46,351 nucleotides of DNA from a virus, in IMG/VR virus record IMGVR_UViG_3300042549_006803, positions 1 through 46,351 of that record. The stretch is one strand, 5' to 3'. The first letter of the stretch is position 1. Each line of letters starts with the position of its first letter. Below are positions 11,550 to 43,692 of this stretch, piece by piece. The translations under genes and the position numbers were made by a program. Below the pieces are notes generated by a model, which searched no databases, was not told the origin of the DNA, and worked only from the letters and a program-made list of their open reading frames with translations.

Positions 11550-12011
11550 ATGAAATTTCAATCAACAAAAGTCTTCGATGGTTACTCCACAGTATTTCGT
11601 CAATGGAGAGCAGAAGGAACTCACTGTAGTTTTCTTCATGGTTATGGTATTTCTTTTAAAATTGTATTTGAGGGAGAACTTGATGAAAGAAACTGGGTGT
11701 GGGACTTTGGAGGAATGAAGAGAGCTAAAAACACTATTGATGGTATGGCTCCTAAAGTATGGATGGACTTTATGTTTGATCACACATACCTGATTGCATC
11801 TGATGATCCATTTCTAAGCATAGCACTTCAAATGTACGATGATGGAGTAGCCCAAGTAAGAATAGTACCTGCTACCGGAGCAGAACAATTTGCAAAATTT
11901 ATTTACGATAAAGTATCTAAATTTATTACAATTGAAACAGATAATAGAGTACGAGTAGTAAGCGTAGAATTTAAAGAACATAGTAAAAACTCAGCAATAT
12001 ATACAGAATAA
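11550..12011 (+). CDS. queD: QueD-like 6-carboxytetrahydropterin synthase family protein
   Basis: A 153-residue T-fold protein of the PTPS/QueD family. It contains FRQWRAEGTHCSFLHGYG followed by ELDERNWVWDFGGMK, FDHTYLI and a distal ATGAEQFA, in the order seen in the family. It belongs to the FRQWR/HGY subfamily, in which the canonical zinc HGH reads HGY and the usual upstream His is missing, so metal binding differs from textbook QueD. QueD turns dihydroneopterin triphosphate into 6-carboxytetrahydropterin, the second step to 7-deazaguanines. FolE, QueE, QueC-like and DpdA-like genes in this window complete the pathway, which supports the assignment. Confidence 0.82.
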   Translation: MKFQSTKVFDGYSTVFRQWRAEGTHCSFLHGYGISFKIVFEGELDERNWVWDFGGMKRAKNTIDGMAPKVWMDFMFDHTYLIASDDPFLSIALQMYDDGVAQVRIVPATGAEQFAKFIYDKVSKFITIETDNRVRVVSVEFKEHSKNSAIYTE

Positions 12012-12012
12012 T

Positions 12013-12264
12013 ATGAAAAAAGTAATTAGATACACAGCAACATGGTGTGGACCGTGTAAAGTATTTGCTCGTACATTTAATAAAGTAGCAGCAGAAACCC
12101 CAGGAATACAATTTGAAACAGTAGATGTGGATTCAGGACACCAATCAATTATGGAAAACGGAATTAGAAATGTTCCTACTACTGTAGTAATTGAGCCAAA
12201 TGGAACTATTAGAAAACAAAGTGGAAATATGAGTGCAGACGCATTAAAAACATTTATAGGATAA
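12013..12264 (+). CDS. trx: Thioredoxin / glutaredoxin-like redoxin
   Basis: An 83-residue single-domain thioredoxin. The active site TWCGPCK is at residues 10-16 near the N-terminus and the cis-Pro loop is at NVPTTVVIE. It lacks the first strand and helix of the ~105-residue host thioredoxins, as phage redoxins often do. Its likely client is the C-terminal CVSC dithiol of the NrdA encoded upstream. Its stop overlaps the DpdA-like start (TAATG). Confidence 0.92.
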   Translation: MKKVIRYTATWCGPCKVFARTFNKVAAETPGIQFETVDVDSGHQSIMENGIRNVPTTVVIEPNGTIRKQSGNMSADALKTFIG

Positions 12265-13052
12265 TGAAAATATCACATGAATTACCGTTATCGTTATTTC
12301 CATATAGTTTTGGATGGAATGATTATGAGTACTGTTTACCTCACTTATTAGATAAACATGCCGATTATAGACAATTTTTCTTAGATTCTAGAGAACGAGA
12401 CCGTTTTATCATAATGGATAACGGTTTATTTGAAGGTGTAACACACACTATCGAAGATTTAAAAGAAAAAATTAATTTAATTGAGCCTGATATATTCATT
12501 GTTCCTGATGAGTGGAATAACAAATCAGCAACCGCTAAAAATGCTAAACATTGGATTCAATACGAGCTACCTGAACGTACTAATTTAATGGTAGTAATGC
12601 AAGGTACTACAATGGGTGAAATACATCAATTATACCAACAATGTGTTGATATGGGTTATACTCACTTCGCATTTAACCATTCCTCAGTAGTATATCATGA
12701 ATTGTGCCCCACAGAAAATTTAATAGCTAATCAAGCTGTTGGCAGAGTACTACTTCTAGAGAATATGAAGCATGAGAATTTGATTAAACCCCACCACTAT
12801 ATCCATCTACTGGGCTGCTCAGTACCCCAAGAATTTACTCACTATAGAGACAATTGGGCACCTGGTTTGATTAATTCCGTAGATACTTCAAATCCTATTA
12901 TATGTGGTGCTTTAGGTATTAGATACAATGAAATTGGTTTATTGGAAAAACCAACAAACAAAATTGAAGAATTTATGGAATCTGATTTAGACGATAAATT
13001 AGAAGATATTAAATATAATATTCAACGTTTTAGAAATTTATGCAATAAATAG
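12264..13052 (+). CDS. dpdA: DpdA-like 7-deazaguanine DNA transglycosylase (TGT fold)
   Basis: A 262-residue protein with tRNA-guanine transglycosylase hallmarks: FIIMDNGLFEG (equivalent to the DSGGFQ substrate loop), PDIFIVPDEW, VVMQGTTMGE (VQG-like), HLLGCSVPQEF (HLLGIG-like) and INSVDTSNP, whose Asp is the likely nucleophile. It is shorter than tRNA TGT and lacks the TGT zinc cysteines, as in phage DpdA proteins that exchange guanine in DNA for a preQ0-type base. The surrounding queD, queC, queE and folE supply that base. The tRNA-versus-DNA target cannot be proven from sequence, but context favours DNA modification that blocks host restriction. Confidence 0.78.
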   Translation: MKISHELPLSLFPYSFGWNDYEYCLPHLLDKHADYRQFFLDSRERDRFIIMDNGLFEGVTHTIEDLKEKINLIEPDIFIVPDEWNNKSATAKNAKHWIQYELPERTNLMVVMQGTTMGEIHQLYQQCVDMGYTHFAFNHSSVVYHELCPTENLIANQAVGRVLLLENMKHENLIKPHHYIHLLGCSVPQEFTHYRDNWAPGLINSVDTSNPIICGALGIRYNEIGLLEKPTNKIEEFMESDLDDKLEDIKYNIQRFRNLCNK

Positions 13053-13083
13053 TTGGATTTGTAAAATATAATTCGTATATTTA
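13053..13083 (+). promoter_or_regulatory. Bacteroidota-type promoter before small-gene cluster
   Basis: TTG at 13053-13055 just after the dpdA stop, a 20-nt spacer, then TATATTTA at 13076-13083 within TTCGTATATTTAT. It leads to the small gene starting at 13108. Confidence 0.68.
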
Positions 13084-13107
13084 TAAAGTAAAACAAATAT
13101 AAAAGTT

Positions 13108-13251
13108 ATGAGTAAAACTTCATCAAAGAGCAAGTACGAGCAATTAATGGCTTGGTTACCAACACTAGGACAATCTAAAAAGTCTAAAGTAGAAAAATCA
13201 ACTACTAAATTCTCTAAAGGAGATTATTACAAACAACAAGGAGTAAAATAA
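13108..13251 (+). CDS. Small basic hypothetical protein
   Basis: A 47-codon frame starting at the ATG of AAAAGTTATG, 24 nt after a strong promoter-like element. The product is Lys/Ser-rich and basic (for example EQLMAWLPTLGQSKKSK), with no recognised domain. The strong upstream promoter and the phage's standard start context argue that it is expressed. Small basic proteins in this position are often early host-takeover factors, but nothing in the sequence proves it. Confidence 0.6.
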   Translation: MSKTSSKSKYEQLMAWLPTLGQSKKSKVEKSTTKFSKGDYYKQQGVK

Positions 13252-13253
13252 TC

Positions 13254-13400
13254 ATGATTGAAATCATAAAACATAGTTTAGGACTGTGTGGTGAAGGTCA
13301 TATTAGTCTTTTAAATTGTTCTCCATTTATAATTGGGGGAGTAGGATATTTTACGTATATTAAATCAAAATTAAAATTAAAGTTATGGAAAAAGAATTAA
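13254..13400 (+). CDS. Small single-span membrane protein
   Basis: A 48-codon frame beginning 2 nt after the preceding stop and overlapping the next gene by 16 nt in another frame. It encodes a hydrophobic stretch (LLNCSPFIIGGVGYFTYIK) flanked by a basic tail KSKLKLKLWKKN, which predicts one membrane span with the Lys-rich end in the cytoplasm. No family recognised. No strong ribosome signal is visible, so translation probably depends on coupling. Confidence 0.45.
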   Translation: MIEIIKHSLGLCGEGHISLLNCSPFIIGGVGYFTYIKSKLKLKLWKKN

Positions 13401-13609
13401 AACCGTACATGATGTCTCTTTATGAGTATCTAGGTAGAGCCGCAGGATCTGAATTAGGAAAAGAAGTAGCTGCTACAGCAGTAGCTTTAAGAGAAACTAT
13501 TAAAGAACAAGATGTTTCTAATCCTAAATATACAGGTAAAATAAAAATGTATCGTAGAGAATTTCTAGATGAGTATTTTGGGAATAAAGTATATGAAGGA
13601 GAAAAATAA
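13385..13609 (+). CDS. Hypothetical protein
   Basis: A 74-residue soluble protein with start context AAAGTTATG. It has mainly helical composition and ends in a Tyr/Glu-rich tail (EFLDEYFGNKVYEGEK). No recognised domain, signal or cysteine motif. It belongs to the run of small genes between dpdA and queC that share the same leader and are probably co-transcribed. Confidence 0.65.
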   Translation: MEKELKPYMMSLYEYLGRAAGSELGKEVAATAVALRETIKEQDVSNPKYTGKIKMYRREFLDEYFGNKVYEGEK

Positions 13610-13615
13610 AAAGTT

Positions 13616-13807
13616 ATGACAATATTACGAAAATACGAAACTGTAACTGATGTTAATGTTTATGAAGTAAAACTCACTGATGAACAATTAGCAATGTATC
13701 AAGAAGATGAAGATCTTTTCTGGGATAGATTTGATAGTGATTTAGATTGGGAATTTATTTACGACAAAGTAGGTGATCCTGATTTTGAATTTGAGTTAAG
13801 AAAATAA
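13616..13807 (+). CDS. Small acidic hypothetical protein
   Basis: A 63-residue, strongly acidic protein (QEDEDLFWDRFDSDLDWEF) following the previous gene by 6 nt with leader AAAAAGTTATG. High Asp/Glu and aromatic content resembles DNA-mimic or inhibitor proteins that phages use against host factors, but this is only a compositional resemblance. No family recognised. Confidence 0.65.
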   Translation: MTILRKYETVTDVNVYEVKLTDEQLAMYQEDEDLFWDRFDSDLDWEFIYDKVGDPDFEFELRK

Positions 13808-13858
13808 CAACGTTTGCCTATACGTTTCAAATACCTGGTACAAATTAAATTATAAATT

Positions 13859-14731
13859 ATGTCTAAAAAACATGTTGTAGTATCCTTAAGTGGAGGAATG
13901 GACTCAAGCACACTATTGCTTAGATGTCTAAAAGAGTATGATAGTGTAACAGCTATTTCATTTGACTATGGTCAAAAACACAGAGTAGAGTTAGAGAGAG
14001 CTCAAGCATTAGTAGATTATATTTGCAATAACGATATAGGAATTGCTAACAGTATCAAGTATCGCCAAATCAAACTAGACGGGTTAGTTGATTTATTAGA
14101 TTCAGCTTTGGTAACAGGAGGTAAAGATGTACCAGAAGGTCACTATGAGCAAGACAATATGAAAGAAACGGTTGTTCCTAACAGAAACAAGATGTTTGCT
14201 TCTATTTCTCAAGCAGTAGCTTTATCAATTGCAAATCGTACAGAAGAGACTTGTGATATTGCTTTAGGAATTCATGCTGGTGATCATGCTATCTATCCAG
14301 ACTGTCGTCAAGAATTTAGAGATGCAGATGATGCTGCTTTTAGAATCGGAAATTGGGATGCAGAAAGAGTAAATTATTTCTCACCTTATCTTCAAGGAGA
14401 TAAATTCGATATCTTAAAAGACGGAGAAGTATTATGTGAAGAGTTGGGATTAGATTTTGATGAAGTTTATTCAAGAACTAATACATCTTATAAACCAATT
14501 AAGATAGTAACTAACGGGTTTATACAGACATCTCCGGAAAATACAAAATTTACCTCACCAATAGTGACTTGGTATTCAGACTACAAATCAGCTTCATCAG
14601 TAGAACGTATTGAAGCATTTATTAAACTAGGAAGAAAAGATCCAGTTGCTTATGCAGACGAAACAGGACCAGTAACATGGGAAGTAGCTAGAGCTGCAGT
14701 AGAACAAGTGCTAGAAGCACATAACAATTAA
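13859..14731 (+). CDS. queC: QueC-like 7-deazaguanine synthase lacking zinc cysteines
   Basis: A 290-residue PP-loop ATPase with SLSGGMDSSTLL at residues 9-20, SFDYGQKHRVEL, and the QueC ending ERIEAFIKLGRKDPVAYAD. QueC converts 7-carboxy-7-deazaguanine to preQ0 through the 7-amido intermediate, using ATP and ammonia. The zinc site normally formed by SCY plus CGxCxxC is replaced here: the regions read TNTSYKP and WYSDYKSASSVER, so all four expected Cys positions are Ser, Tyr, Tyr and Ala. The protein may therefore stop at the amide, use another stabilisation, or have a new role. A weak promoter-like TTTG/TACAAATT pair lies upstream, with 22-nt spacing. Confidence 0.85.
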   Translation: MSKKHVVVSLSGGMDSSTLLLRCLKEYDSVTAISFDYGQKHRVELERAQALVDYICNNDIGIANSIKYRQIKLDGLVDLLDSALVTGGKDVPEGHYEQDNMKETVVPNRNKMFASISQAVALSIANRTEETCDIALGIHAGDHAIYPDCRQEFRDADDAAFRIGNWDAERVNYFSPYLQGDKFDILKDGEVLCEELGLDFDEVYSRTNTSYKPIKIVTNGFIQTSPENTKFTSPIVTWYSDYKSASSVERIEAFIKLGRKDPVAYADETGPVTWEVARAAVEQVLEAHNN

Positions 14732-16637: not shown

Positions 16638-16874
16638 ATGGATGAATTCTTAGAGTTCCCAGGATTAACAGATGATGAAATAAATCAAGTAATGACTGAA
16701 TTTTTTGAATGGGATAGGTTGCAAGATTATGATTTTGTAAATAAATTTGACGATTTTATTTATGTTTCATATGATGAAGTTTTAAATAACCCCAACGATA
16801 TAGAATTAGGCTCTTTAGTCCGGAGAAGATATACAGAAGCTCAAAATAAATTAAAAGAAAGTCCCTCATTGTAG
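16638..16874 (+). CDS. Small acidic hypothetical protein
   Basis: A 78-residue very acidic, aromatic-rich protein (MDEFLEFPGLTDDEINQVMTE) with no recognised family. It follows a TATATTTAC box by about 16 nt and starts in the context AAAGTATG. The stop codon lies inside the loop side of the next terminator hairpin, so this is probably a single-gene transcript. Composition is similar to the acidic protein at 13616-13807. Confidence 0.6.
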   Translation: MDEFLEFPGLTDDEINQVMTEFFEWDRLQDYDFVNKFDDFIYVSYDEVLNNPNDIELGSLVRRRYTEAQNKLKESPSL

Positions 16875-16882
16875 GGACTTTT
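16858..16882 (+). terminator. Rho-independent terminator overlapping a stop codon
   Basis: AAAGTCCCT (16858-16866) pairs with AGGGACTTT (16873-16881) around a 6-nt loop, followed by Ts. The 3' end of the preceding gene is encoded within the stem. It separates the small acidic gene from the lysis cassette. The 78 nt that follow, up to 16960, are A/T-rich leader without another gene. Confidence 0.75.
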
Positions 16883-16960: not shown

Positions 16961-17209
16961 ATGGGATTTTTTAGCATTTTCAAAAAATCAAATGACTACA
17001 ATGAAAAAGTTATCATTGGTTTTTTATCGTTCACAGTAATGGTTGCTGCAATTGTAGTTGATCTACTTACAGGTTACATGGGTAAGGCACTAGAGTTAAA
17101 TGAATACATCTTCGATGCATTTATGTATATAACTTTAGGGAGTTTTCTTCCTGATGTAATTGAAAAATTTGCTAATCTTAAAGGAGGTAATAAATCTAGC
17201 GACGAGTAG
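16961..17209 (+). CDS. Two-TM small membrane protein, holin-like
   Basis: An 82-residue protein with two predicted membrane spans, roughly residues 21-41 (IIGFLSFTVMVAAIVVDLLTG) and 50-68 (IFDAFMYITLGSFLPDVIE). They are separated by a short loop, with a charged cytoplasmic-type tail GGNKSSDE. Size, two spans and the location at the head of a cassette with endolysin, holin and spanin-like genes suggest a holin or antiholin. It ends one base before the PAS-protein start. The C-terminal module of that PAS protein has the same span-loop-span layout. Confidence 0.65.
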   Translation: MGFFSIFKKSNDYNEKVIIGFLSFTVMVAAIVVDLLTGYMGKALELNEYIFDAFMYITLGSFLPDVIEKFANLKGGNKSSDE

Positions 17210-17210
17210 C

Positions 17211-18317
17211 ATGAAAAACTTATCAAAAGAAGAGTTATTAAGTAGACTTGAAGCAATTAATAGAAGCAATGCTATTATATACTTTGATCTTAATGGTACC
17301 ATACTAGGAGTTAATGACATTTTTTTGCAAGCAATGGGCTATGGTGCTGGTAATCATGAAGAGCTTATTGGTAAGCATCATAGAACTTTTGTATGTGAAG
17401 AGTACTCAAGATCACTTGAATATGAAAAATTTTGGGATATACTAAGAAGTGGTAAGTACTATCAAGGAGAGTTTGAGAGAAGAAAAAAAGACGGAAGTCT
17501 TATAAATCTTCAAGCAACTTATAATCCTATTTTTAATGAGGATAATAAGATTACTAAGATAATGAAAATTGCTACTGACATTACAGAAATTGTCAATAGC
17601 AAGAAACAAATAGAAGCAATCAACCGAAGCACTGCCTTTATTAGTTTTAATACTGATGGATTTATATTAGATGTAAATTCTGTATTTCTAAAAACTATGG
17701 GGTATAAGGCTAATGAAAAAGGTAAACTCGTTGGAAAACATCACAGTATTTTTGTGAGTTATGAGTATTCAAAGTCTGACGAATATACTAAGTTTTGGGA
17801 AGATTTAAAAAAAGGTGAGTTTTTTGATGGAATATTTGAAAGGAAAAAAGTAGATGGTTCTACTGTGTATTTACAAGCATCTTACAATCCAGTAGTTGAT
17901 AGTAAAGGAAACATTACTGAAGTAGTTAAAATTGCAACTGATGTAACTGAGTCTGTAAATAATAAGGAAAAGATAGATGAGCTTACAAAAAATTTAACAG
18001 TTGAATTAGCAAACTCTCAAAAACTTAAAAACTCAATAGAATTAGAAAAGGATGCTGCTTTGAATGATTTAGATGTAGTATTAAAAAAGAGTCAAAATGA
18101 GTTAATAAAAATAATTGTTAAGTGTGCGTTAGGTGTTATAGTAGGAGTTGGTATTGTAACAACTATGCTATACTGGGCAGCCATTATAACAGATCAAGAT
18201 ACACAAATAATTGGATCCACTTGGAGTAATATGTTTAGTGTTTTATTAACTAATGCATTTTCAATAGTTGGTACAATTATGGGTATTAAGTACGCCACAC
18301 AAGATAGTAATAAATAA
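17211..18317 (+). CDS. Tandem PAS sensor with C-terminal two-TM module
   Basis: A 368-residue protein. I chose the ATG at 17211, 1 nt after the previous stop; an in-frame TTG at 17160 would overlap that gene. PAS1 spans about residues 15-127 and PAS2 about 137-250. Both have the Aer/BdlA-type signature: NGTILGVNDIFLQAMGY / DGFILDVNSVFLKTMGY, VGKHH(R/S)xFV, FWExLxxGxFxxGxFER, LQA(T/S)YNP and KIATD(I/V)TE. A coiled coil follows (about 251-300), then two membrane spans (about 301-325 and 340-360). Bacterial relatives carry a chemoreceptor signalling domain at the end; here a holin-like membrane module replaces it. Flanked by lysis genes, it may sense redox or energy state and gate lysis. The ligand is unknown. 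Confidence 0.85.
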   Translation: MKNLSKEELLSRLEAINRSNAIIYFDLNGTILGVNDIFLQAMGYGAGNHEELIGKHHRTFVCEEYSRSLEYEKFWDILRSGKYYQGEFERRKKDGSLINLQATYNPIFNEDNKITKIMKIATDITEIVNSKKQIEAINRSTAFISFNTDGFILDVNSVFLKTMGYKANEKGKLVGKHHSIFVSYEYSKSDEYTKFWEDLKKGEFFDGIFERKKVDGSTVYLQASYNPVVDSKGNITEVVKIATDVTESVNNKEKIDELTKNLTVELANSQKLKNSIELEKDAALNDLDVVLKKSQNELIKIIVKCALGVIVGVGIVTTMLYWAAIITDQDTQIIGSTWSNMFSVLLTNAFSIVGTIMGIKYATQDSNK

Positions 18318-18327
18318 AAATTAAATT

Positions 18328-18939
18328 ATGAGTTTAAAATCACTACAAACAAAAATTGGAATAACAGCAGATGGTGCTTTTGGTCCGGGTACAATGAAAA
18401 AAGCAATGGAGTTCTATAAACTAACCCCAGTTAGAGCAGCTCATTTTTTTGCACAAACAGCACATGAGTCAGGTAATTTTAAAGCATTTTCAGAAAACCT
18501 AAACTATTCAGCCCAAGGGCTTCAAGGAATTTTTGGAAAATATTTCCCAGGCACTTTAGAAGAGTCTTATGCTCGCAACCCTGAAAAAATTGCAAACAGA
18601 GTGTATGCTTCTAGAATGGGTAATGGTGATGAGAAATCAGGAGACGGATTCAAATTCCGTGGAAGGGGTGCTCTTCAATTAACAGGCAAAGATAATTACG
18701 CAGCATTTGCAAAATATCTAAACAAACCAGAGATTATGACACATCCTGATTTAGTAGCTACAGAATATTCTTTTGAATCAGCAATGTTCTTTTTTGACAA
18801 AAATAAATTATGGTCAATTTGTGACCAAGGAATTAATGATGCTTCAATTTTAGCTCTTACAAAAAGAATTAATGGTGGTACTCATGGATTAGCTGATCGC
18901 TCAGAGAAAACTAAAAAGTATTACGAATACGTAAAGTAA
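18328..18939 (+). CDS. Endolysin, GH19-family lysozyme/chitinase-like
   Basis: A 203-residue protein. Residues 1-30 are a remnant of a peptidoglycan-binding motif (LQTKIGITADGAFGPGTMKK). The GH19 catalytic domain follows: FFAQTAHESGNF with the catalytic Glu, YASRMGNG, the FRGRGALQLTG motif and TKRINGG. Phage GH19 enzymes cut the glycan strands of murein at lysis. It has no signal peptide, so it needs a holin for export, and holin-like genes flank it on both sides. Confidence 0.92.
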   Translation: MSLKSLQTKIGITADGAFGPGTMKKAMEFYKLTPVRAAHFFAQTAHESGNFKAFSENLNYSAQGLQGIFGKYFPGTLEESYARNPEKIANRVYASRMGNGDEKSGDGFKFRGRGALQLTGKDNYAAFAKYLNKPEIMTHPDLVATEYSFESAMFFFDKNKLWSICDQGINDASILALTKRINGGTHGLADRSEKTKKYYEYVK

Positions 18940-18950
18940 GTTACTATAAG

Positions 18951-19376
18951 ATGAAAACATCACTTTTAATTACATTATCATTGACAACAGCATGCGCCTT
19001 TATAGGTTCATATTTTATGAATCTAACAGCAAATAACATCGAACAATATCTTTCAATAGCTTTTGTAATATTTGCTGATGGGTTCTTTGGTGTATGGGCA
19101 GGGATTAAAAGAGAAGGATTTCAAACTTGTAAAGCATTAAGTGTACTAAAAACCTTTTTATTTTGGGTAATAATGCTCTCTGCTATATTAACAATAGAAA
19201 AAGGATTTGCTGGAACAAGCTGGTTAAGTGAAACTATCATAGCTCCCTTTTTAGTATTTCAACTGATTTCGATTTTAAAAAATGCATCAATGGTCGGCAT
19301 AGTAAAAAACGAACTTCTTACTCAAATATTAGATAAATTAGATAAACATAAAGGTGAAAGAAATATTACAAAATAA
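18951..19376 (+). CDS. Holin (phage_holin_4-like)
   Basis: A 141-residue protein with a hydrophobic N-terminus and three or four predicted spans: LLITLSLTTACAFIGSYFM, YLSIAFVIFADGFFGVWAG, FLFWVIMLSAILTI and IIAPFLVFQLISIL. The signature DGFFGVWAGIKREGF, followed by KALSVLKTF, and the C-terminal basic helix ILDKLDKHKGERN fit the toxin-secretion/phage-lysis holin family (phage_holin_4). It would permeabilise the inner membrane to release the endolysin encoded 11 nt upstream. It overlaps the spanin-like gene by 23 nt. Confidence 0.85.
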   Translation: MKTSLLITLSLTTACAFIGSYFMNLTANNIEQYLSIAFVIFADGFFGVWAGIKREGFQTCKALSVLKTFLFWVIMLSAILTIEKGFAGTSWLSETIIAPFLVFQLISILKNASMVGIVKNELLTQILDKLDKHKGERNITK

Positions 19377-19716
19377 ACAAAATTTATTATTAATTTTAGT
19401 AGTTATATTAATTGGGTATAATATTTTTACTACAAATAGTGTAAGAACAGATGTAAAGGGTTACAAAGCTAAAATTGAATCAATACAAACCAAGATAGAT
19501 TCAGCTAAAGTAGTTAACACAAAGATCGATACTAAGATAGATTCAGTAAAACAAAATGTAGTTTCTATTACAAAACAAATAAACCACATAGATAACACAA
19601 TAACAATCGTAAAAAATCAAACAAATGAAAAAGCTAATAATGCTGGTAAGTTTTCTAATGTTGAGCTTGAGCAGTTTTTCGCAAGTAGATACAACAAAAG
19701 TTTTACTATCAACTAA
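19354..19716 (+). CDS. i-spanin-like membrane-anchored coiled-coil protein
   Basis: A 120-residue protein starting at GTG 19354 inside the end of the holin gene. An N-terminal span (LLLILVVILIGYNIF, about residues 11-25) is followed by a long periplasmic coiled coil with repeated KIDS/KIDT motifs. This is the layout of an inner-membrane spanin (Rz type), which links inner and outer membrane and destroys the outer membrane at lysis. The next gene is nested in its 3' end in another frame, as Rz1 is in Rz. Assigned from architecture and position only. Confidence 0.65.
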   Translation: MKEILQNKQNLLLILVVILIGYNIFTTNSVRTDVKGYKAKIESIQTKIDSAKVVNTKIDTKIDSVKQNVVSITKQINHIDNTITIVKNQTNEKANNAGKFSNVELEQFFASRYNKSFTIN

Positions 19717-20026
19717 AATTGCTCGACAAGTTGCACAAGACCTTATTAGATATGATGGTTGCAAACAAGAACTAAAACTTACTCAAGACAAAGTTTTAAA
19801 ACTAGAAGCAAGAGAGATACAAAAAGATACTATTATTAAACTTCTAAATGATAAGGATGAAAATAATAAGTACATTATTCATCAATATGAACTCCAAATT
19901 GGTCAATACGAACATATGACTTACGATCTACAAAAAGAAATAAGAAGATCAAGAACAAAGACATTCCTTTATAAAGTAGGAACATTTATAGGGATAGCCA
20001 CATCAGGATACCTTTTTATAAAATAA
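19625..20026 (+). CDS. Spanin-partner-like protein, signal peptide and C-terminal TM
   Basis: A 133-residue protein whose first 92 nt overlap the i-spanin-like gene in a different frame. An N-terminal signal peptide (MKKLIMLVSFLMLSLSSFSQ) of Bacteroidota style, with no lipobox Cys, is followed by a coiled coil (LTQDKVLKLEAREIQKDT...) and a C-terminal hydrophobic segment KVGTFIGIATSGYLFIK. The nested arrangement recalls Rz/Rz1, but the absence of a lipoprotein signal and the C-terminal membrane segment make it different: either a unimolecular-spanin-like protein or another lysis factor. Confidence 0.65.
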   Translation: MKKLIMLVSFLMLSLSSFSQVDTTKVLLSTKIARQVAQDLIRYDGCKQELKLTQDKVLKLEAREIQKDTIIKLLNDKDENNKYIIHQYELQIGQYEHMTYDLQKEIRRSRTKTFLYKVGTFIGIATSGYLFIK

Positions 20027-20049: not shown

Positions 20050-20072
20050 GGTTGGACATCGTCCAACCTTTT
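20050..20072 (+). terminator. Perfect inverted repeat, terminator of lysis operon and possible operator
   Basis: GGTTGGAC-ATC-GTCCAACC (20050-20068), an uninterrupted 8-bp stem with a 3-nt loop, followed by TTTTATT. It lies 23 nt after the last lysis gene and works as a rho-independent terminator on paper. The same palindrome covers the -33 TTG and half the spacer of the queE promoter, so a protein operator is an alternative. Confidence 0.75.
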
Positions 20073-20096: not shown

Positions 20097-20885
20097 ATGC
20101 AAAAAATCCCAAGAATGACTGAAGCTGAAAAGAACAAATTATCAGCTGTTAATGAACTTTATACTGCTGTCCAAAGTGAAGGAAGTAGAGCAGGATACCC
20201 TACAGTAGTAATAAGAACTACTGGCTGTACTCATCGCTGCTTTTTTGGTGATGGAGGGTGGTGCGATAGCTGGTATACATCAATTCACCCAGAAAAAGCC
20301 AAATATAGTTTTGATGATATTATCAAAATGTATGATGACAATCCCCACATCACAGAGATGATGCTTACGGGAGGAAGCCCTACTATGTGGCCTAAATTAG
20401 TAAACGAATTAACACATTTTGCACATGAAAGAAAAATATTTATCACTATTGAAACTGAAGGAAGTCATTTTCTGGAGACTGACTATCCTATTAATTTACT
20501 TTCCATATCACCTAAATTTAGCAATTCAGTTCCTAAAATCGGAGTACTCACACCTCAAGGAGCGGTTACGGATGAAAAAATGATCACTCAGCATAACAAG
20601 TTAAGATTAAACTATGATGCAATCTCTAAATCAATTAGATACCATTCTGACTACCATTTAAAACCAGTATGGGATGGAGAAGATGAAGATACTTTAGGAG
20701 AAATTCTCAGCTTTATCCACATGATGGATATCCCAGAAGACAAAGTATACTTTATGCCAGCTGGAGATACGAGAGAAGCTTTATTCAAATCATATCCTAA
20801 AATGTTTGATTGGGTGAGAGATAATGGATTTAGATTGACCTGGAGGCCTCACATTATTGCATTTGAAGACCAAAGAGAAGTATAA
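20097..20885 (+). CDS. queE: 7-carboxy-7-deazaguanine synthase (radical SAM)
   Basis: A 262-residue radical-SAM enzyme. I use ATG 20097, after the promoter; the TTG at 20052 lies inside the terminator/-33 region. AVQSEGSRAGYPTVVIRTTG precedes the cluster cysteines C44, C48 and C56 in the pattern CTHRC-x7-C, a spacing typical of the phage QueE type with GGWCDSWYTS. MLTGGSPTMW (SAM-binding GGE-like) and the C-terminal ending TWRPHIIAF, similar to QueE ends, are also visible. It converts 6-carboxytetrahydropterin to 7-carboxy-7-deazaguanine for the DNA-modification pathway. FolE follows with its own promoter. Confidence 0.9.
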   Translation: MQKIPRMTEAEKNKLSAVNELYTAVQSEGSRAGYPTVVIRTTGCTHRCFFGDGGWCDSWYTSIHPEKAKYSFDDIIKMYDDNPHITEMMLTGGSPTMWPKLVNELTHFAHERKIFITIETEGSHFLETDYPINLLSISPKFSNSVPKIGVLTPQGAVTDEKMITQHNKLRLNYDAISKSIRYHSDYHLKPVWDGEDEDTLGEILSFIHMMDIPEDKVYFMPAGDTREALFKSYPKMFDWVRDNGFRLTWRPHIIAFEDQREV

Positions 20886-20890
20886 TATTA

Positions 20891-20922
20891 TTTGGATATT
20901 AAAATAGAATTTATTACATTTA
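20891..20922 (+). promoter_or_regulatory. Bacteroidota-type promoter before folE
   Basis: TTTG at 20891-20894, 20-nt spacer, TACATTTA at 20915-20922; gene start at 20941. The element lies entirely in the short queE-folE gap. Confidence 0.72.
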
Positions 20923-20940
20923 CCTATTAAAAAATTATAA

Positions 20941-21636
20941 ATGGAAAACAATAGAAAAAAAATCCACAACGATTTAGAAGTGGTACAAGAAGGATTTGCT
21001 AATGGTGTCGCACCTGGTTTTCCTTTAGATGACAAAGCTAAAGCTAAAATGATTGAGAAAGCAGCTAAAGCTTATGGTCAATTTTTAACAGCATTAGGTT
21101 GTGATTGGGAAAATGATCCTAATAGCGACAACACTCCAAATAGAGTAGCTAAAGCTTATGTTAATGATTTATGGAAAGGCCGATATACAGCAATGTCTGA
21201 AATCACTTCATTCCCTTCTGATGGTTACGATGGTATTGTAATTGAAAGAAATATTCCATTAACTTCAATGTGTTCACATCACCACCAAACAATTGGAGGA
21301 GTAGTTCATATTGGTTATGTAGTAGGTGAAAATGGTAGAGTAATTGGTTTATCTAAATTAAACAGAATTGTTGAACTATTCGGTAGAAGAGGAGCAATAC
21401 AAGAACAATTAACATCAGCTATTCATAATGCCGTAAATAAAATTTGTGAAAATAATAGAGGTGTAATTGTAACTGTAGTAGGTACTCACAACTGTGTTTC
21501 ATGTAGAGGAGTTAGACATCAAGGTGCCTCTATGGTTACAACTAAAGCAACAGGTGTATTTATAGAAAATGGAAATTTAGCTCGTGAAGAATTTTTCGAT
21601 TCAATCAAAATCAATAACGGAACCCACCCAGTATAA
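20941..21636 (+). CDS. folE: GTP cyclohydrolase I
   Basis: A 231-residue enzyme that opens GTP to dihydroneopterin triphosphate, the first step to 7-deazaguanines. The zinc site is intact: SMCSHHHQ (Cys111, His114) and HNCVSCRGV (Cys185). GLSKLNRIVELF and QEQLT are the usual substrate-binding segments. Length and motifs are normal for type I. Beyond cofactor supply, the presence of queD, queE, queC and a dpdA-like gene indicates a role in making a modified DNA base. It overlaps the PRTase start (TAATG). Confidence 0.95.
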   Translation: MENNRKKIHNDLEVVQEGFANGVAPGFPLDDKAKAKMIEKAAKAYGQFLTALGCDWENDPNSDNTPNRVAKAYVNDLWKGRYTAMSEITSFPSDGYDGIVIERNIPLTSMCSHHHQTIGGVVHIGYVVGENGRVIGLSKLNRIVELFGRRGAIQEQLTSAIHNAVNKICENNRGVIVTVVGTHNCVSCRGVRHQGASMVTTKATGVFIENGNLAREEFFDSIKINNGTHPV

Positions 21637-23661: not shown

Positions 23662-24942
23662 ATGTCAAAACAAAAGGTTTCGAATGAAACAATATTTGTA
23701 CAAATCGCTTCGTACAGAGATCCCGAATTACTACCTACTATTAAAGATTGTTTAGCTAATGCTAAATATCCTAAAAATCTACGTATTTGTATTGCTTGGC
23801 AACACGCTGAAGAAGACGAATGGGATAATTTAGATGAATACAAAAATGATCCACGTTTTAAAATAATGGATATTCATTATAAAGACGCTAAAGGAGTATG
23901 TTGGGCTAGAAACAGATTACAAAGACATTATAACGGAGAAAAATACACATTACATTTAGATTCTCATCACCGGTTCTCTAAGAACTGGGATGAGACACTA
24001 ATTAATATGTTAAAAGGTCTCCAAAATAAAGGTCATAAAAAACCATTACTTACAGCCTACCTACCAGGATATTTTCCTAATGATGATCCTAAAGGACGTA
24101 ATAATGAAGTTTGGTTTACTAATTGTGATAGATATATGCCCGAAGGACCTATTTTTATCGCTCCTGGTCATGTACCAAATTGGGAAACTCTTACCGAACC
24201 AATACCCGCTAGATTTTACTCTGGACATTTTGGATTTACCTTAGGTGAATTTACTCATGACGTACCTCATGATCCTGAACTTTATTTTCATGGTGAAGAA
24301 ACATCTATATCTGCTCGAGCATTTACTCACGGGTATGATCTATTTCATCCTCATATTCCTGTTATTTGGCATGAATATACTAGAGAAGGAAAAAAACGTC
24401 ATTGGGATGATCATCAATTTTCCCCATTAGATAAAGCTTCATTTAAAAAATATAGAGCATTATTTGGTATAGATAACGAAAGCAGAGAAGATATGGATTT
24501 TGTCGGGCTTGACTTAGGAAAAGAACGTACATTGGCCGAATTCGAGCGTTATATTGGGGTAGATTTTAAAGGTAAACGAATCCAAAAACATACATCCGAC
24601 CAAAAAATGCTTCCTATACCTGAAATGACAGAGGAAGAATGGGAATCAAATTTTGTAAACCGTTTTAAATATTGCATTGATCTCTATAAACCATCTGTAC
24701 CTGATGAGGATTATGATTGTTGGGTAATAGCATTTAAAGACAAAGATGGTGTTGAAATAGCCAGAATGGATGCTGATAAAGCAGAAATTACTAGAATCAA
24801 ACAATCTAACCCTACAGGTCATTTCTACAATATATGGAGAGAATTTGACTGTTTAGAATACCCTAAAAGCTGGCTATTATGGCCTCACAGTCCATCTAAA
24901 GAATGGGATCATGAAATTATAAAAAACGAAATACCTTACTAA
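23662..24942 (+). CDS. GlcNAc-transferase-family glycosyltransferase (copy 1)
   Basis: A 426-residue GT-A enzyme resembling the Skp1-type GlcNAc transferase family. It opens with IFVQIASYRDPELLPTIKDC, a nucleotide-sugar-binding segment, followed by CWARNRLQ, the metal motif LHLDSHHRF, ARFYSGHFGFT and FHGEETSISARAFTHGYDLF with the catalytic acidic pair. The C-terminal ~110 residues form a separate small domain. It begins a run of sugar-modifying genes. The next gene is a clear paralog starting on its stop codon (TAATG). Confidence 0.87.
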   Translation: MSKQKVSNETIFVQIASYRDPELLPTIKDCLANAKYPKNLRICIAWQHAEEDEWDNLDEYKNDPRFKIMDIHYKDAKGVCWARNRLQRHYNGEKYTLHLDSHHRFSKNWDETLINMLKGLQNKGHKKPLLTAYLPGYFPNDDPKGRNNEVWFTNCDRYMPEGPIFIAPGHVPNWETLTEPIPARFYSGHFGFTLGEFTHDVPHDPELYFHGEETSISARAFTHGYDLFHPHIPVIWHEYTREGKKRHWDDHQFSPLDKASFKKYRALFGIDNESREDMDFVGLDLGKERTLAEFERYIGVDFKGKRIQKHTSDQKMLPIPEMTEEEWESNFVNRFKYCIDLYKPSVPDEDYDCWVIAFKDKDGVEIARMDADKAEITRIKQSNPTGHFYNIWREFDCLEYPKSWLLWPHSPSKEWDHEIIKNEIPY

Positions 24943-26228
24943 TGAAAAAACCAAATAGCAGAAAAATATTCATCCACCTACCAGCATATAGAGAACCAGA
25001 ATTAATTCCCACAATTAAATCTGCTTTAGAAAATGCTAAATATCCAAAACGTTTAGTATTTGGTATTTGTAGACAATTTAATCCTGAAGACGGATTTGAT
25101 AATATTGATGAGTATAGAAACGATAAACGTTTCAAAATTATAGATATACCATATGAACAAGCCAAAGGATTACCTTATGCCCGCCATCAGATTAATACAT
25201 TATTAACTAATGAGGAATACATTTGCCAATTAGATTCACACCATAGATTTGCACAAGACTGGGATGTTACATTAATTGAAATGCACGATCAGCTAAAAAC
25301 GAAAGGTCATAAAAAACCAATATTAGCTGCTTATTTACCTTATTACAACCCATTTAACGATCCTGCTGAACGTACTATGGAACCATGGCAACAAACATTC
25401 GCTTGTTTTTATCCTCACGGTACTATATTCATACGTCCTTCATTACTGCATGGGTGGCAAAACATGACTGAACCACCTCCATCAAGATTTCTATCCGGGC
25501 ATTTCTGCTTTGCTGATGGGCATTGGGCTAAAACAGTTTTACACGATGCTGATATCTTTTTTAGTGGTGAAGAATTAAATTTAACTGTACGTTCTTATAC
25601 TCACGGTTATGATCTGTTTCACCCTCATAAATTAGTAATTTGGCACGCTACTATGAGAGAAGAGCGTAGTGGTAAATTAGTATGGGATGATCAAAGTAAA
25701 CGAGGTGAAGATTGGTGGTCTCAACAAGATATTGCTAGAGCTAAAATTAGACAATTACTTCAAACCGAAGATAATGGTTATGATTTAACAGGCTATGATT
25801 TAGGAACTGAACGTACTTTAAAAGATTATGAAAAGTACGCTGGTATTAACTTTAAAAAACGATCAGTACAGAAATATACTTTAGATAATAATTATCCTCC
25901 TAATCCATATTATTTAGATGATCAAGAATGGGAAAATTCATTTATGTTTTCATTCTATCATTTAATTCAATTTAGCAAAGCTACATTTAAACATGATGAT
26001 TATGATTTTTGGGTTTGTGCTTTTGACGATGAAAATGGAAAAGAAGTATGGAGAGAAGATTATCAAGAACATCAAATTAAAGGAATACTTAATTCCCCTG
26101 GTGATTGGTATAATGAAGAAAAATTCTTCTTAACTGAAACTATTCCAACTCGTTGGGTAATTTGGGCACATAGTAAGTCTCAAGGATGGGTAGAACGAAT
26201 TGAAGAACAAGTTAATTATAAAAAATGA
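24942..26228 (+). CDS. GlcNAc-transferase-family glycosyltransferase (copy 2)
   Basis: A 428-residue paralog of the preceding protein, collinear throughout: IFIHLPAYREPELIPTIKSA, YARHQINTL, CQLDSHHRF, RFLSGHFCFA, FSGEELNLTVRSYTHGYDLF. A C-terminal domain is equivalent to that of copy 1 (DDYDFWVCAFDDENGKEVW versus DDYDCWVIAFKDKDGVEIA-like). This is a tandem duplication followed by divergence, suggesting successive sugar transfers with different specificity. It overlaps the next gene by ATGA. Confidence 0.87.
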   Translation: MKKPNSRKIFIHLPAYREPELIPTIKSALENAKYPKRLVFGICRQFNPEDGFDNIDEYRNDKRFKIIDIPYEQAKGLPYARHQINTLLTNEEYICQLDSHHRFAQDWDVTLIEMHDQLKTKGHKKPILAAYLPYYNPFNDPAERTMEPWQQTFACFYPHGTIFIRPSLLHGWQNMTEPPPSRFLSGHFCFADGHWAKTVLHDADIFFSGEELNLTVRSYTHGYDLFHPHKLVIWHATMREERSGKLVWDDQSKRGEDWWSQQDIARAKIRQLLQTEDNGYDLTGYDLGTERTLKDYEKYAGINFKKRSVQKYTLDNNYPPNPYYLDDQEWENSFMFSFYHLIQFSKATFKHDDYDFWVCAFDDENGKEVWREDYQEHQIKGILNSPGDWYNEEKFFLTETIPTRWVIWAHSKSQGWVERIEEQVNYKK

Positions 26229-33712: not shown

Positions 33713-33921
33713 TGGAACAAATGATTAAAGTAAATGACGAATTATTCTTGATAAAAAGAACAACTAACGAATTATATGAACGTTTTGCAAGTTTATGGAA
33801 TAAAATATCTATAAACCACAAAACATTTAAAAAAGATGGCCGAATGTACTTCTGTGAACTTATAGAAGAAGCCCAAATTATAGAAGATAATATTAACCAA
33901 AAACAAGAAGAAAATGATTAA
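33712..33921 (+). CDS. Small hypothetical protein between clamp and GroES
   Basis: A 69-residue mainly helical protein, coupled to the clamp stop (TAATG) and overlapping the GroES start by 8 nt. It contains a basic middle (NHKTFKKDGR) and an acidic C-terminus (EEAQIIEDNINQKQEEND). No family recognised. The tight overlaps on both sides indicate a genuine gene in the replication operon. Confidence 0.65.
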   Translation: MEQMIKVNDELFLIKRTTNELYERFASLWNKISINHKTFKKDGRMYFCELIEEAQIIEDNINQKQEEND

Positions 33922-34210
33922 AGCAGTATGGGATGCCATAATTGTAAAGGCAGACGAAAAAAATGATCGTATGCATGGGAAATTTATTATTCCCGACTTA
34001 AGCCAAGAAAAAGCCATAATTGGAACCGTCATTGACGTTGGACCAGGAAAATGGAACGCAGAAGGAACTGCAAGAGTCCCTATGTCCTTTAAAGTAGGAG
34101 ATAGAGTGTTATTACCTCAAGTAGGATTAACCAAATTAGAATGGGATGGAATAGAATACTTAGCAACATCAGAAGCTACAGTATTAGGATTAATTGAAGA
34201 ACAAAACTAA
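33914..34210 (+). CDS. groES: GroES-like co-chaperonin
   Basis: A 98-residue Cpn10-fold protein: VWDAIIVKADEKND, a mobile-loop region around MHGKFIIPDLSQEKAI with the hydrophobic IIP edge that docks to GroEL, GTVIDVGPGKW, FKVGDRVLLPQVGLTKLEWDG and EATVLGLIE. It is close to bacterial GroES in sequence, unlike T4 gp31, so it probably works with the phage GroEL encoded 2 nt downstream and possibly with host GroEL. It caps the folding chamber. Confidence 0.92.
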   Translation: MIKAVWDAIIVKADEKNDRMHGKFIIPDLSQEKAIIGTVIDVGPGKWNAEGTARVPMSFKVGDRVLLPQVGLTKLEWDGIEYLATSEATVLGLIEEQN

Positions 34211-34212
34211 AT

Positions 34213-35844
34213 ATGAAAACAGCCTTTAATCAAGACGCTAAAGAGAAATTAGCAAAGGGTATTAAAACCGTAGCAGATGCTGTTGGTTCTACCTTAGGTC
34301 CATACGGACGAAATGTATTATTCCTTGACGAATATGGAAGTGTACGTAGTACAAAAGATGGTGTAACTGTAGCTAAAGAGCTTAAAAAGCTTGAAGATCC
34401 TATTGAAAACATGGGAGCACAAACAGTAAAACAAGCATCTATCAAAACTGCTGATAAAGCAGGAGATGGTACTACTACATCAACTGTATTAGCTAATGAA
34501 TTAATTCAAAAAGCATTTAGCAGTATCAACACCAATACTAATGTTGTATTAGTAAAAAAAGGTATTGAAGCGGGAGCTGCTGAAGTGTTAGCAGGTCTAA
34601 AACAAATTAAACGTGAAATTACTTCTCCTGAACAAATTAAACAAGTAGCTACTATTTCTGCTAATAATGATGAAGAAATTGGAGCATTAGTTGCTGAAGC
34701 GATGGAATTAGTAGGGCAAGATGGTGTTGTAACAGTTGAAGAATCTAAAACGGGAGAAACATCATTAGAAACTGTTGAAGGTATCCAATTTGATAGAGGA
34801 TACAAATCAATGTATTTCGTAACTGATAACAACTCAATGTCAGCCACATTACAAGACCCAGTAATTTTAATCTACAACGGACGTTTGGTATCAGTTAAAG
34901 AATTACTTCCAATTCTTGAAGGTGCTTCTCAAACTGATAGTTCATTATTGATTATCGCTGAAGATATTGATGGTGAAGCATTATCTACGTTAATAGTAAA
35001 CAAAATGAGAGGTATGTTAAAAGTAGTAGCGGTTAAAGCTCCTGATTTTGGAGATAGACGTGCTGCTGTTTTAGAAGATATTGCTACTGTAACTGGTGGA
35101 ACTGTAGTAACACCTGAAAAAGGTATGAAATTAGATAGATTTAATTCTGAATGGTTTGGTACTTCTAGAGTTGTAACTGTAACTAAAGATACTACTACAA
35201 TTGTAGATGGTAGAGGTGAAGAAACAGCAGTTCAAGAACGTGTAGCTGAACTTAAAGAACAAATTAATAAGGCAACATCAGCGTTTGAAAAAGAACATTT
35301 ACAAGAACGTTTAGGTAAATTAGTAGGTGGTGTAGCTGTAATCAATATTGGTGGTGCTACTGAAACTGAAATTAAAGAGAAAAAAGACCGTATCGATGAT
35401 GCTTTACAAGCAACAAAAGCTGCTCTAGAAGAAGGTTTATTACCTGGTGGTGGTATTGCTTTATTAGAAGCTAGAGAAGGAATTACTCAAAACAAAACAG
35501 ACGGTGGTGATTTTAACTTAGGTAAAAGAATTGCTTATACTGCTTGTGGTGCTCCATTCTTAAAAATCCTTACAAATGCTGGTATTGAAACTACAAATGA
35601 AATAGTTTTTGCTCTTCGCAAGGCTAGAGAGGACAACCCAGAAAAAGGTCGTACATTTGGATATGATATAAAAACAGAAACAGTAACAGATATGTTTGAA
35701 GCTGGTATTATAGATCCAATGAAAGTAGTACGTACAGCGTTAGCAAATGCTGTGTCTGTTGCTGGAACTATACTGTTAACAGAGTGTGTACTTTATGATG
35801 AACCTAAAAAAGATAAAGATGATCAACAACAGCTTATGGGTTGA
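34213..35844 (+). CDS. groEL: GroEL-like chaperonin
   Basis: A full-length 543-residue group I chaperonin. Nucleotide-binding motifs are intact (TLGPYGRNV, KDGVTVAKEL with the Asp52 equivalent, AGDGTTTSTVLANEL). The apical-domain substrate-binding region and KAPDFGDRR are present, as are KKDRIDDALQATKAALEEG with the ATPase Asp398 equivalent, LLPGGG and the closing NAVSVAGTILLTE. The usual flexible GGM tail is replaced by a charged tail, KKDKDDQQQLMG. Complete GroEL/GroES pairs are uncommon in phages. It probably folds large or abundant phage proteins. Its 3' end overlaps the clamp-loader gene. Confidence 0.96.
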   Translation: MKTAFNQDAKEKLAKGIKTVADAVGSTLGPYGRNVLFLDEYGSVRSTKDGVTVAKELKKLEDPIENMGAQTVKQASIKTADKAGDGTTTSTVLANELIQKAFSSINTNTNVVLVKKGIEAGAAEVLAGLKQIKREITSPEQIKQVATISANNDEEIGALVAEAMELVGQDGVVTVEESKTGETSLETVEGIQFDRGYKSMYFVTDNNSMSATLQDPVILIYNGRLVSVKELLPILEGASQTDSSLLIIAEDIDGEALSTLIVNKMRGMLKVVAVKAPDFGDRRAAVLEDIATVTGGTVVTPEKGMKLDRFNSEWFGTSRVVTVTKDTTTIVDGRGEETAVQERVAELKEQINKATSAFEKEHLQERLGKLVGGVAVINIGGATETEIKEKKDRIDDALQATKAALEEGLLPGGGIALLEAREGITQNKTDGGDFNLGKRIAYTACGAPFLKILTNAGIETTNEIVFALRKAREDNPEKGRTFGYDIKTETVTDMFEAGIIDPMKVVRTALANAVSVAGTILLTECVLYDEPKKDKDDQQQLMG

Positions 35845-38554: not shown

Positions 38555-39997
38555 ATGAAAGAAAATTACATCCCGCAAGAGAAGCGGAAAAAGATCCTGC
38601 TATTATCCGATGACATTAGAACAACATCGGGAATAGCTACTATGGCTCGAGAAATCGTATTAGAAACGTGCCATCACTACAACTGGGTGAATTTAGGAGC
38701 AACAATCCAAAACCCTGATGAAGGTAAAAAATTAGATCTAAGTGGAGATTCTAATAATTTTGCTCAAATTACAGATGCTAATGTTATGTTATATCCATCT
38801 TCGGGATATGGTACTATTGAAAAAATTAGAGATCTTCTTAAAACAGAAAAACCCGATGCTATTATGTTATTTACCGACCCTCGTTATTGGGAGTGGTTGT
38901 GGATGCATGAAAGAGAAATTCGTTCACAAGTTCCTATTTTATATCTTAATATTTGGGATTCATTACCTTACCCCTTATATAATAAAGGATACTATGAATC
39001 TTGTGATTTACTGATGGCTATTTCTAAACAAACCGAAAATATTAACAGATCAGTATTAGGAGATGCAGCTAAAGATAAAGTAATAGGATATGTCCCTCAT
39101 GGTATTAATAAAAATGTATTTTTCCCTATCAATGATGGTGATGAAAAATGGAGTGAACTTCAAGAATTTAAGAAAAATTTATTTGGAGGAAAAGAATATG
39201 AGTTTGTGTTAATGTTTAACTCAAGAAACATTAGACGTAAATCATTTCCTGATACATTATTAGCTTGGAAATTATTTGTTGATGGTCTTCCCGAAGATAA
39301 AAAAGATAAAGTAGCTTTCTTAGCCCATACTCAACCAGTAGACGAAAATGGAACAGACTTACCAGCAGTAATCGAAATGATCTGGGGTAAAACGCCACCA
39401 AATGTATTCCTTACAGGATTAAACAGATTCATCCCAGAACAAATGAATTTATTATTTAATTGTGCTGATGCTGGGATTTTAATTTCATCAAATGAAGGTT
39501 GGGGATTATCTTTAACTGAAGCAATGATGTGTGGTAAACCTATTATCGCTAATGTTACTGGGGGTATGCAAGACCAAATGCGTTTTGAAGACGAAAATGG
39601 TGATTGGATTAAATTTACAGAAGAATTTGGTTCAAATCATTTTGGAAAATATAAAAAATGTGGAGAATGGGCCTTTCCTGTATTCCCTAGTAATATGAGT
39701 CTAATTGGTTCAGTACCAACGCCTTATATATTTGATGACAGAGCAGATTTTAGAGATGCTGCTAATCAAATCAAAGCAATATACGATTTAGGCTCAGAAG
39801 AACGTAAACGTTTAGGAGAATCAGCACGTAAGTGGACATTATCCGATGAAGCTATGATGACTTCAACTAATATGGGTAAAAATGTTATCAAATATATTGA
39901 TCAAACATTTGACACTTGGATACCAAGAAAATCACATGATTTTATCCGAATAAAAGAATTATCTGCAAAACAAAATAAAACTGTAATTTCATTATGA
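38555..39997 (+). CDS. Glycosyltransferase family 4 protein
   Basis: A 480-residue GT-B enzyme. The N-terminal domain starts KKILLLSDDIRTTSGIATMA. The C-terminal nucleotide-sugar domain contains VLMFNSRNIRRKSFPDTLLAW, VFLTGLNRFIPEQMNLLFN and the GT4 EX7E region SSNEGWGLSLTEAMMCGKP, then GGMQDQM. GT4 enzymes transfer sugars with retention from NDP-sugars. It begins the third glycan block and overlaps the next GT4 gene by ATGA. Confidence 0.9.
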   Translation: MKENYIPQEKRKKILLLSDDIRTTSGIATMAREIVLETCHHYNWVNLGATIQNPDEGKKLDLSGDSNNFAQITDANVMLYPSSGYGTIEKIRDLLKTEKPDAIMLFTDPRYWEWLWMHEREIRSQVPILYLNIWDSLPYPLYNKGYYESCDLLMAISKQTENINRSVLGDAAKDKVIGYVPHGINKNVFFPINDGDEKWSELQEFKKNLFGGKEYEFVLMFNSRNIRRKSFPDTLLAWKLFVDGLPEDKKDKVAFLAHTQPVDENGTDLPAVIEMIWGKTPPNVFLTGLNRFIPEQMNLLFNCADAGILISSNEGWGLSLTEAMMCGKPIIANVTGGMQDQMRFEDENGDWIKFTEEFGSNHFGKYKKCGEWAFPVFPSNMSLIGSVPTPYIFDDRADFRDAANQIKAIYDLGSEERKRLGESARKWTLSDEAMMTSTNMGKNVIKYIDQTFDTWIPRKSHDFIRIKELSAKQNKTVISL

Positions 39998-41292: not shown

Positions 41293-41293
41293 A

Positions 41294-41725
41294 ATGGAAG
41301 ATAATTTAGTAAAATGTAATCATTGTGGTGCTGAAATGTGTTATGAATATCATAACCCTCAATTTATTCAATGGATGTGTTTTAATTGTGGGTACGGAAG
41401 TACATCACATATGGTTAAAGATAGCGATTTTGTAAAATCATCTAGAGAAGTACTACCTGAATTAATTAAAGATTTAGAATTTACTGATGAAGATGGATTT
41501 GTTTGGTATCCTAGTACAATTAATGTACCCGAAAAAGGAATATTATTTCCTAATGGAACAAGTAAAGATAATTGGCAATGGTCAGTAGCACCTTTAACAC
41601 TGATTAAAGATGAGGAAAAAGCTAAATTCCCTAAAAATCAAACACACAAAGTTGATTTATCTGGTATGGAATATTTTCCAAAAGAATCATATGCTTTAGC
41701 AGTTACAAGATTAAACGCATTGTAA
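41294..41725 (+). CDS. Zinc-ribbon protein in glycan operon
   Basis: A 143-residue protein with an N-terminal zinc ribbon: KCNHCGAEMCYEY and MCFNCGYGS, two CxxC pairs about 24 residues apart. The C-terminal ~100 residues form an alpha/beta domain of unknown type (GFVWYPSTINVPEKGILFPNG) with aromatic residues. It is encoded 1 nt after the GT4 gene and 4 nt before a GT2 gene. Function unknown. Confidence 0.72.
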   Translation: MEDNLVKCNHCGAEMCYEYHNPQFIQWMCFNCGYGSTSHMVKDSDFVKSSREVLPELIKDLEFTDEDGFVWYPSTINVPEKGILFPNGTSKDNWQWSVAPLTLIKDEEKAKFPKNQTHKVDLSGMEYFPKESYALAVTRLNAL

Positions 41726-41729
41726 AATA

Positions 41730-42371: not shown

Positions 42372-42380
42372 AAATCAGTT

Positions 42381-43691: not shown

Positions 43692-43692
43692 T

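Follow-up and report, generated by a model that had tools for sequence, protein, structure and literature searches.

A tandem PAS sensor protein with a conserved two-span membrane hairpin encoded beside endolysins in phage lysis cassettes

Introduction

In the usual view, the timing of phage lysis is set by a holin clock, and superinfection-driven lysis inhibition is the known form of sensing. We know of no PAS, kinase or receiver domain in T4 lysis inhibition. In the lysis inhibition by the antiholin RI of T4 and by ArrA/TeaA of ICP1, phage proteins sense conditions and adjust the timing of lysis at the membrane (PMC7182436). Both systems respond to superinfection, and PAS, kinase and receiver are not involved in the same account. 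A collapsing proton motive force can trigger holins (PMC7182436).

The closest described systems on the sensory side are the PAS-PAS chemoreceptors of the BdlA/AerC/McpS type, which carry a methyl-accepting signalling domain. The PAS domains of BdlA are predicted to bind FAD (PMC8694187), and the rule for an FAD-binding PAS domain is a Trp on Fα with a His and/or an Asn (PMC10468136). Here we analyse a gene in a 46,351-nucleotide stretch of viral DNA (IMG/VR record IMGVR_UViG_3300042549_006803; hereafter the window), whose product resembles these chemoreceptors in having two FAD-type PAS domains in tandem, but has a two-span hairpin instead of the methyl-accepting domain and is encoded in a phage lysis operon. 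An earlier note, made from the sequence of the window, knew of no described phage system of this design. In agreement, none of the open-access papers searched described a phage lysis cassette that contains a PAS domain or a two-component system, and the hairpin (hereafter the tail), together with the coiled-coil protein and receiver described below, had no match among 50,697 phage records.

Results

Lysis operon of the window

The sensor gene lies in a compact block of genes with the following features.

16857..16882, + strand: terminator-like hairpin just upstream of the operon (stem prediction)
16961..17209, + strand: 82-aa membrane protein, a holin candidate of no curated family; homologues beside the sensor gene in most relatives
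17211..18317, + strand: gene of the PAS-PAS-coiled coil-two-span protein (368 aa, ATG to TAA, intact ORF)
17247..17600, + strand: PAS domain 1 (residues 13-130; W75, H57), from Pfam
17601..17966, + strand: PAS domain 2 (residues 131-252; W196, H178), from Pfam and the Aer alignment
17967..18101, + strand: helical coiled-coil linker (residues 253-297), one helix continuing into span 1 in the AlphaFold2 model
18102..18308, + strand: two-span output module (residues 298-366), from hydropathy and the alignment of relatives; residues 331-363 nearly all invariant in 61 distinct relatives
18328..18939, + strand: GH19-type endolysin, 203 aa (Pfam GH19 4e-6, PHROG endolysin 5e-62), no predicted span
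18951..19376, + strand: holin of the Phage_holin_4_1 family, about four spans (Pfam 2e-6, hydropathy)
19354..19716, + strand: probable inner-membrane spanin, N-terminal span and coiled coil (overlap, topology, weak Rz-like PHROG matches)
19625..20026, + strand: probable second spanin subunit (out-of-frame overlap with 19354..19716, signal-like N-terminus)
20050..20068, + strand: terminator-like hairpin just downstream of the operon (stem prediction)

The upstream stop codon ends at 17209, 1 nt before the sensor gene, and the ATG of the endolysin is at 18328, 10 nt after it; the coordinates thus confirm the spacing given in the earlier note. Since terminator-like stems flank the block, with no further one on the + strand between 16857-16882 and 20050-20068, the six genes at 16961-20026 look like one transcription unit. 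The 82-aa product, which had been read as a two-span holin-like protein, has one clear span and a weaker second segment by hydropathy. Its homologues occur in 63 of about 80 relatives' loci, where 58 copies directly adjoin the sensor gene. As for the holin and spanin-like genes proposed downstream, the Phage_holin_4_1 holin and the GH19 endolysin stand, and the two spanins are probable from their overlap, topology and weak Rz-like matches.

Anatomy and conservation of the sensor protein

The protein start MKNL[SP]KEE is kept in relatives, which supports the ATG at 17211; an alternative TTG start at 17160 would lengthen the ORF. Pfam assigned PAS_3 (4e-25) and PAS_9 (2e-24), both far over the cut-off, and NCBIfam assigned sensory_box twice. 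No kinase, cyclase or MCP domain was found by Pfam, nor an MCP domain by NCBIfam. Hydropathy placed the two spans at residues 298-316 and 341-359. The AlphaFold2 model of the full protein, predicted alone, has two PAS folds, a single long helix (residues 246-327) and a second tail helix (residues 332-362), with low confidence over the tail; the tail predicted alone with 80 relatives reached a pLDDT of 82 and adopted the same shape as in the full-length model. Taken together, Pfam, NCBIfam, hydropathy and AlphaFold2 bear out the previously proposed order of two PAS domains, a coiled coil and two spans, with no chemoreceptor, kinase or cyclase domain.

The fusion is not a one-off: a viral scan revealed 269 relatives of the sensor protein in viral contigs, all of them metagenomic. 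The best 80 of these 269 are 81-100% identical and lie in many differing gene neighbourhoods, on contigs of up to 272 kb, and the sensor protein is frequently more conserved than the products of neighbouring genes. The dN/dS of the gene is ~0.08 over 61 distinct proteins which, together with the 269 viral relatives, argues that the ORF is not a chance one.

PAS domains

The two PAS domains of the window protein share 54% identity. The bacterial kin of the pair are PAS-PAS chemoreceptors of the BdlA/AerC type, with ~43-46% identity over the pair, and the two-span hairpin replaces the chemoreceptor output. These results support the earlier reading of a BdlA/Aer-type PAS pair whose signalling output has been swapped for a membrane module. 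Alignment to Aer showed that W196 and H178 correspond to Aer W70 and H53 (Aer numbering counted by hand), with W75 and H57 as their counterparts in PAS1, whereas the third FAD-contact residue, Aer Asn85, is replaced by Glu. All four residues are invariant among 14 diverse relatives, and the Trp was found in 207 of 207 PAS copies that carry the motif, the His being part of the motif searched. Judged by residues, both PAS domains thus combine the Trp on Fα with at least one of His and Asn, and they are likely to bind FAD and to sense redox state.

Structural similarity search with the full model returned PAS folds only, the top match being the redox PAS pair of MmoS. A search of bacterial genome contigs with two patterns for full-length relatives likewise gave PAS matches only. 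The PAS-domain tree groups the single and tandem PAS domains of phages together and does not separate a kinase origin from a chemoreceptor origin. One single-PAS form (locus L096, 1222-1971, reverse complement) is PAS1-like at its start and PAS2-like in the middle, as if it had arisen by recombination between PAS repeats, or as if the tandem form had arisen by duplication.

Two-span hairpin

The second span is highly conserved. Most of residues 331-363 are invariant over 61 distinct proteins, and synonymous codons there vary as elsewhere, although the invariance of the last residues is partly due to search patterns containing MGIKYATQ or GTIMGIKY (357-364), with residues 331-352 lying outside the patterns. 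Over span 2, dN/dS is ~0 and silent sites are near saturation. A second scan, using a DNA pattern for VGTIMGIKY only and therefore blind to the PAS part, regained span 2 together with the variant QVIS(A/T)(A/T)W(S/A)N(I/M)FGILLTNAFSIVGTIMGIKYA. Span 2 displays a small/polar face (N340-S343-T347-S351-G354-G358), a weak signal obtained with the second scale tried (p ~0.01-0.02); its hydrophobic moment from hydropathy alone is not significant. Positive residues precede span 1, which by the positive-inside rule predicts an N-in, C-in topology.

The sensor protein possesses at least one span and its gene sits beside an endolysin, as expected of a holin, but the tail does not belong to any holin family by sequence. 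It had no match to holin families in Pfam or NCBIfam and no convincing PHROG match, leaving the proposed holin-like nature of the module with no basis in homology. Attempts to place the tail in a holin family through Pfam, NCBIfam, PHROGs and profile comparison with the 82-aa partner or members of PHROG 1544 yielded nothing firm. Against PHROG 1544 itself, the best value was 3e-5, usually 0.01 or worse, and the hhalign probability was <1%. The proteins of this family of unknown function, from Bacteroidota genomes, possess a coiled coil followed by a hairpin like the window tail, and a lysozyme is adjacent in one case; however, they lack a sensor, and their similarity to the tail is weak and not confirmed by profile comparison. 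Examples at L291 (599-1054), L288 and L290 have a coiled coil and a hairpin with a GSS end, and the L291 gene and the lysozyme gene overlap at the start of the latter. PHROG 1544 is possibly a related, lysis-linked hairpin family.

A search by structure found one UniProt entry with the tail, A0A6J5PRT3, an unannotated, uncharacterised protein of 218 aa from an uncultured Caudovirales phage, the tail of which is 54% identical to that of the window protein, with a TM-score of 0.82 over the tail model. The tail is absent from 396 Bacteroidota genomes, and the identical profile finds it in 6/6 phage records.

One tail with three inputs

The same tail is joined to three kinds of input: two PAS domains, one PAS domain (~250 aa), or a PAS-less coiled coil (224-228 aa). 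In the third version, a 145-aa receiver (Response_reg 1e-9) is encoded directly upstream of the coiled-coil gene, and a histidine kinase gene lies upstream of the receiver. In each of the 44 loci measured, the receiver stop and the start of the coiled-coil gene overlap by 4 nt. The kinase is present in 52 of 56 receiver-bearing loci (those from the coiled-coil query plus L101), on contigs that reach 304 kb. One example of a first kinase type has HATPase_c (3e-16) and two PAS domains, and a second type has HATPase_c (1e-8) and no recognised PAS domain. The acidic, Asp, Ser and Lys sites are retained in the receivers, as are the His and ATPase motifs in the kinases, so that, by sequence motifs, the giant-phage version encodes a kinase and a receiver together as a two-component system. 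With the window protein's PAS domains, the last PAS domain of the kinase shares 47-55% identity, compared to ~43-46% for the chemoreceptors.

One-component and two-component forms of one pathway are a familiar relation, and with both kinase-receiver and PAS-fused forms of the same tail present, the simplest reading is that signalling controls what the tail does. Further input types were sought with TNAFSIVG followed by a residue without A-initial codons; ten stretches were returned, and the five that were translated represent one unrelated repeated frame. Some giant-phage operons (L202, L211, L220, L252) encode two histidine kinases before the receiver. A conserved protein of ~202 aa with one N-terminal span is encoded 3' of the kinase-receiver-hairpin-endolysin operon (~8471-9078 in L202, and equivalents in other kinase-type loci); it appears GAF-like by eye, and no convincing Pfam match was found.

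Association with endolysins and holins

The tail gene is strongly associated with endolysins. An endolysin lies within 1 kb of it in 48 of 55 distinct loci flanked by 3 kb or more on either side, compared to 24 of 132 other long genes in the same loci (Fisher p ~4e-19), where the PAS-PAS part of the 48 is not fully independent because some endolysin profiles were built from sensor-gene neighbours. The receiver-type (15/17) and single-PAS (5/5) loci both support the association; among loci with sufficient flank, about one in eight lacks a recognised endolysin within 1 kb. All three input versions adjoin endolysins, and the endolysin kinds (GH19, GH24, M15 and PG-binding) are mutually non-homologous.

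The other membrane proteins of the cassettes vary. The 82-aa partner is encoded within 600 nt in 24 of 32 PAS-PAS loci, and on the same strand in none of 17 kinase-form loci. The nearby holin families also differ, with Phage_holin_4_1 accompanying some PAS forms and Phage_holin_10 the kinase form (10/17 loci), the Phage_holin_10 members there being ~55 aa with 1-2 predicted spans. Many cassettes, including that of the window, already carry a recognisable holin from another family. Although holins of these two families share cassettes with the hairpin, no sequence kinship to it was detected, and the hairpin differs in being near-invariant and attached to a sensor. Altogether, there is strong indirect evidence from sequence comparison that the tail is a signal-controlled part of lysis cassettes, fed by alternative inputs beside endolysins.

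Comparison with phage immuto

The window has a GC content of 32%, and Flavobacterium phage immuto, the closest cultured phage, has matches to many of its genes, which makes Flavobacterium or a related host likely. The immuto cassette encodes an 82-aa protein, an endolysin and a holin that are 74%, 82% and 88% identical to those of the window; these genes are neighbours, 10 nt separate the first from the second, and the sensor gene is lacking. A search of the complete 160-kb genome of immuto with the tail profile, which detects the tail in 6/6 metagenomic viruses, gave no match. The sensor gene therefore represents a single-gene gain or loss in an otherwise conserved cassette, and is an accessory rather than a required holin.

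Elsewhere in the window, QueD-, QueC- and QueE-like genes, FolE and a 262-aa protein 33% identical to the annotated DpdA (DNA guanine transglycosylase) of immuto are located at 11550-14731 and 20100-21636, a set that probably serves 7-deazaguanine modification of the phage DNA. GroES- and GroEL-like genes (33914-35844) are present in immuto too. Blocks of glycosyltransferase-like and sugar-modifying genes (23662-26228 and 38555-45341) are mostly unmatched in the first 50 kb of immuto.

Discussion

A sensor fused to the hairpin, and the hairpin wired to a two-component pair in giant phages, suggest that the state of the host cell influences the time of lysis. We consider it fairly probable that the sensor protein is a sensor-controlled regulator of phage lysis timing. 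The fuller model, in which one-component (PAS-effector) and two-component phage systems use a common two-span channel or trigger to set the time of lysis by host redox or energy state, seems to us evenly balanced. In this model, the PAS domains would carry FAD and monitor host respiration or redox state, and the signal would run from the PAS domains down the helix into the hairpin, a path suggested by the anatomy of the protein. In giant phages, the phosphorylated receiver would act on the coiled coil instead. The hairpin would then alter the membrane or the holin, and lysis would be advanced or delayed. The output we favour is a small channel or leak built from a homo-oligomer; it would lower the membrane potential and so trip any holin. 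Because the hairpin stays constant while the adjacent holins and endolysins belong to unrelated families, an output independent of a particular holin is favoured; by the same token, with a holin partner that varies and a span 2 that does not, self-assembly, lipid or a conserved host protein is a likelier partner than the holin. Nearly as likely, and the main alternative within the lysis-timing explanation, is that the hairpin contacts the holin directly and acts as its activator or antiholin.

A stricter form of the sensor-holin fusion proposed in the earlier note is that the hairpin itself is a holin or pinholin, with the PAS domains gating its assembly. A hairpin of two spans preceded by positive residues, the small/polar face on span 2 and the location in a lysis operon all suit this idea, as do the 25 of 32 full-flank PAS-PAS loci with no Phage_holin_4_1 gene seen within 3 kb, 8 of the 32 having no recognised holin and no 82-aa partner. 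We nevertheless regard it as unlikely, given the separate holin in the window, the Phage_holin_10 gene in 10 of 17 kinase-type loci, the immuto cassette that is complete without the gene, and a tail with no sequence similarity to holin families. The dispensability of the gene in immuto would fit an accessory that does not act on lysis but sends a late signal to a membrane target of the host, for instance to exclude superinfecting phages or to control respiration, and is just expressed together with the lysis genes. A conserved host target would suit a span 2 that is invariant across phages with differing holins; yet adjacency to four unrelated endolysin kinds in three architectures is hard to explain through late expression alone, and no match to catalogued defence-related proteins was found, which leaves this reading improbable as well. 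That the gene is a degraded or neutral derivative of a host chemoreceptor, unimportant to the phage, might be suggested by the kinship of its PAS part to bacterial chemoreceptors, but is scarcely credible: the selection data contradict it (dN/dS ~0.08 over the gene and ~0 over span 2), relatives number in the hundreds, and the tail, absent from the 396 Bacteroidota genomes, is matched by its profile in 6/6 phage records.

If regulation of lysis timing by the sensor is true, many aquatic phages, giant ones included, would link lysis either to redox sensing inside the cell or to a full phosphorelay. The cultured immuto without the sensor gene and its metagenomic relatives with the gene form a natural pair, and the tuning of lysis to host physiology by phages, an old question, would become directly testable.
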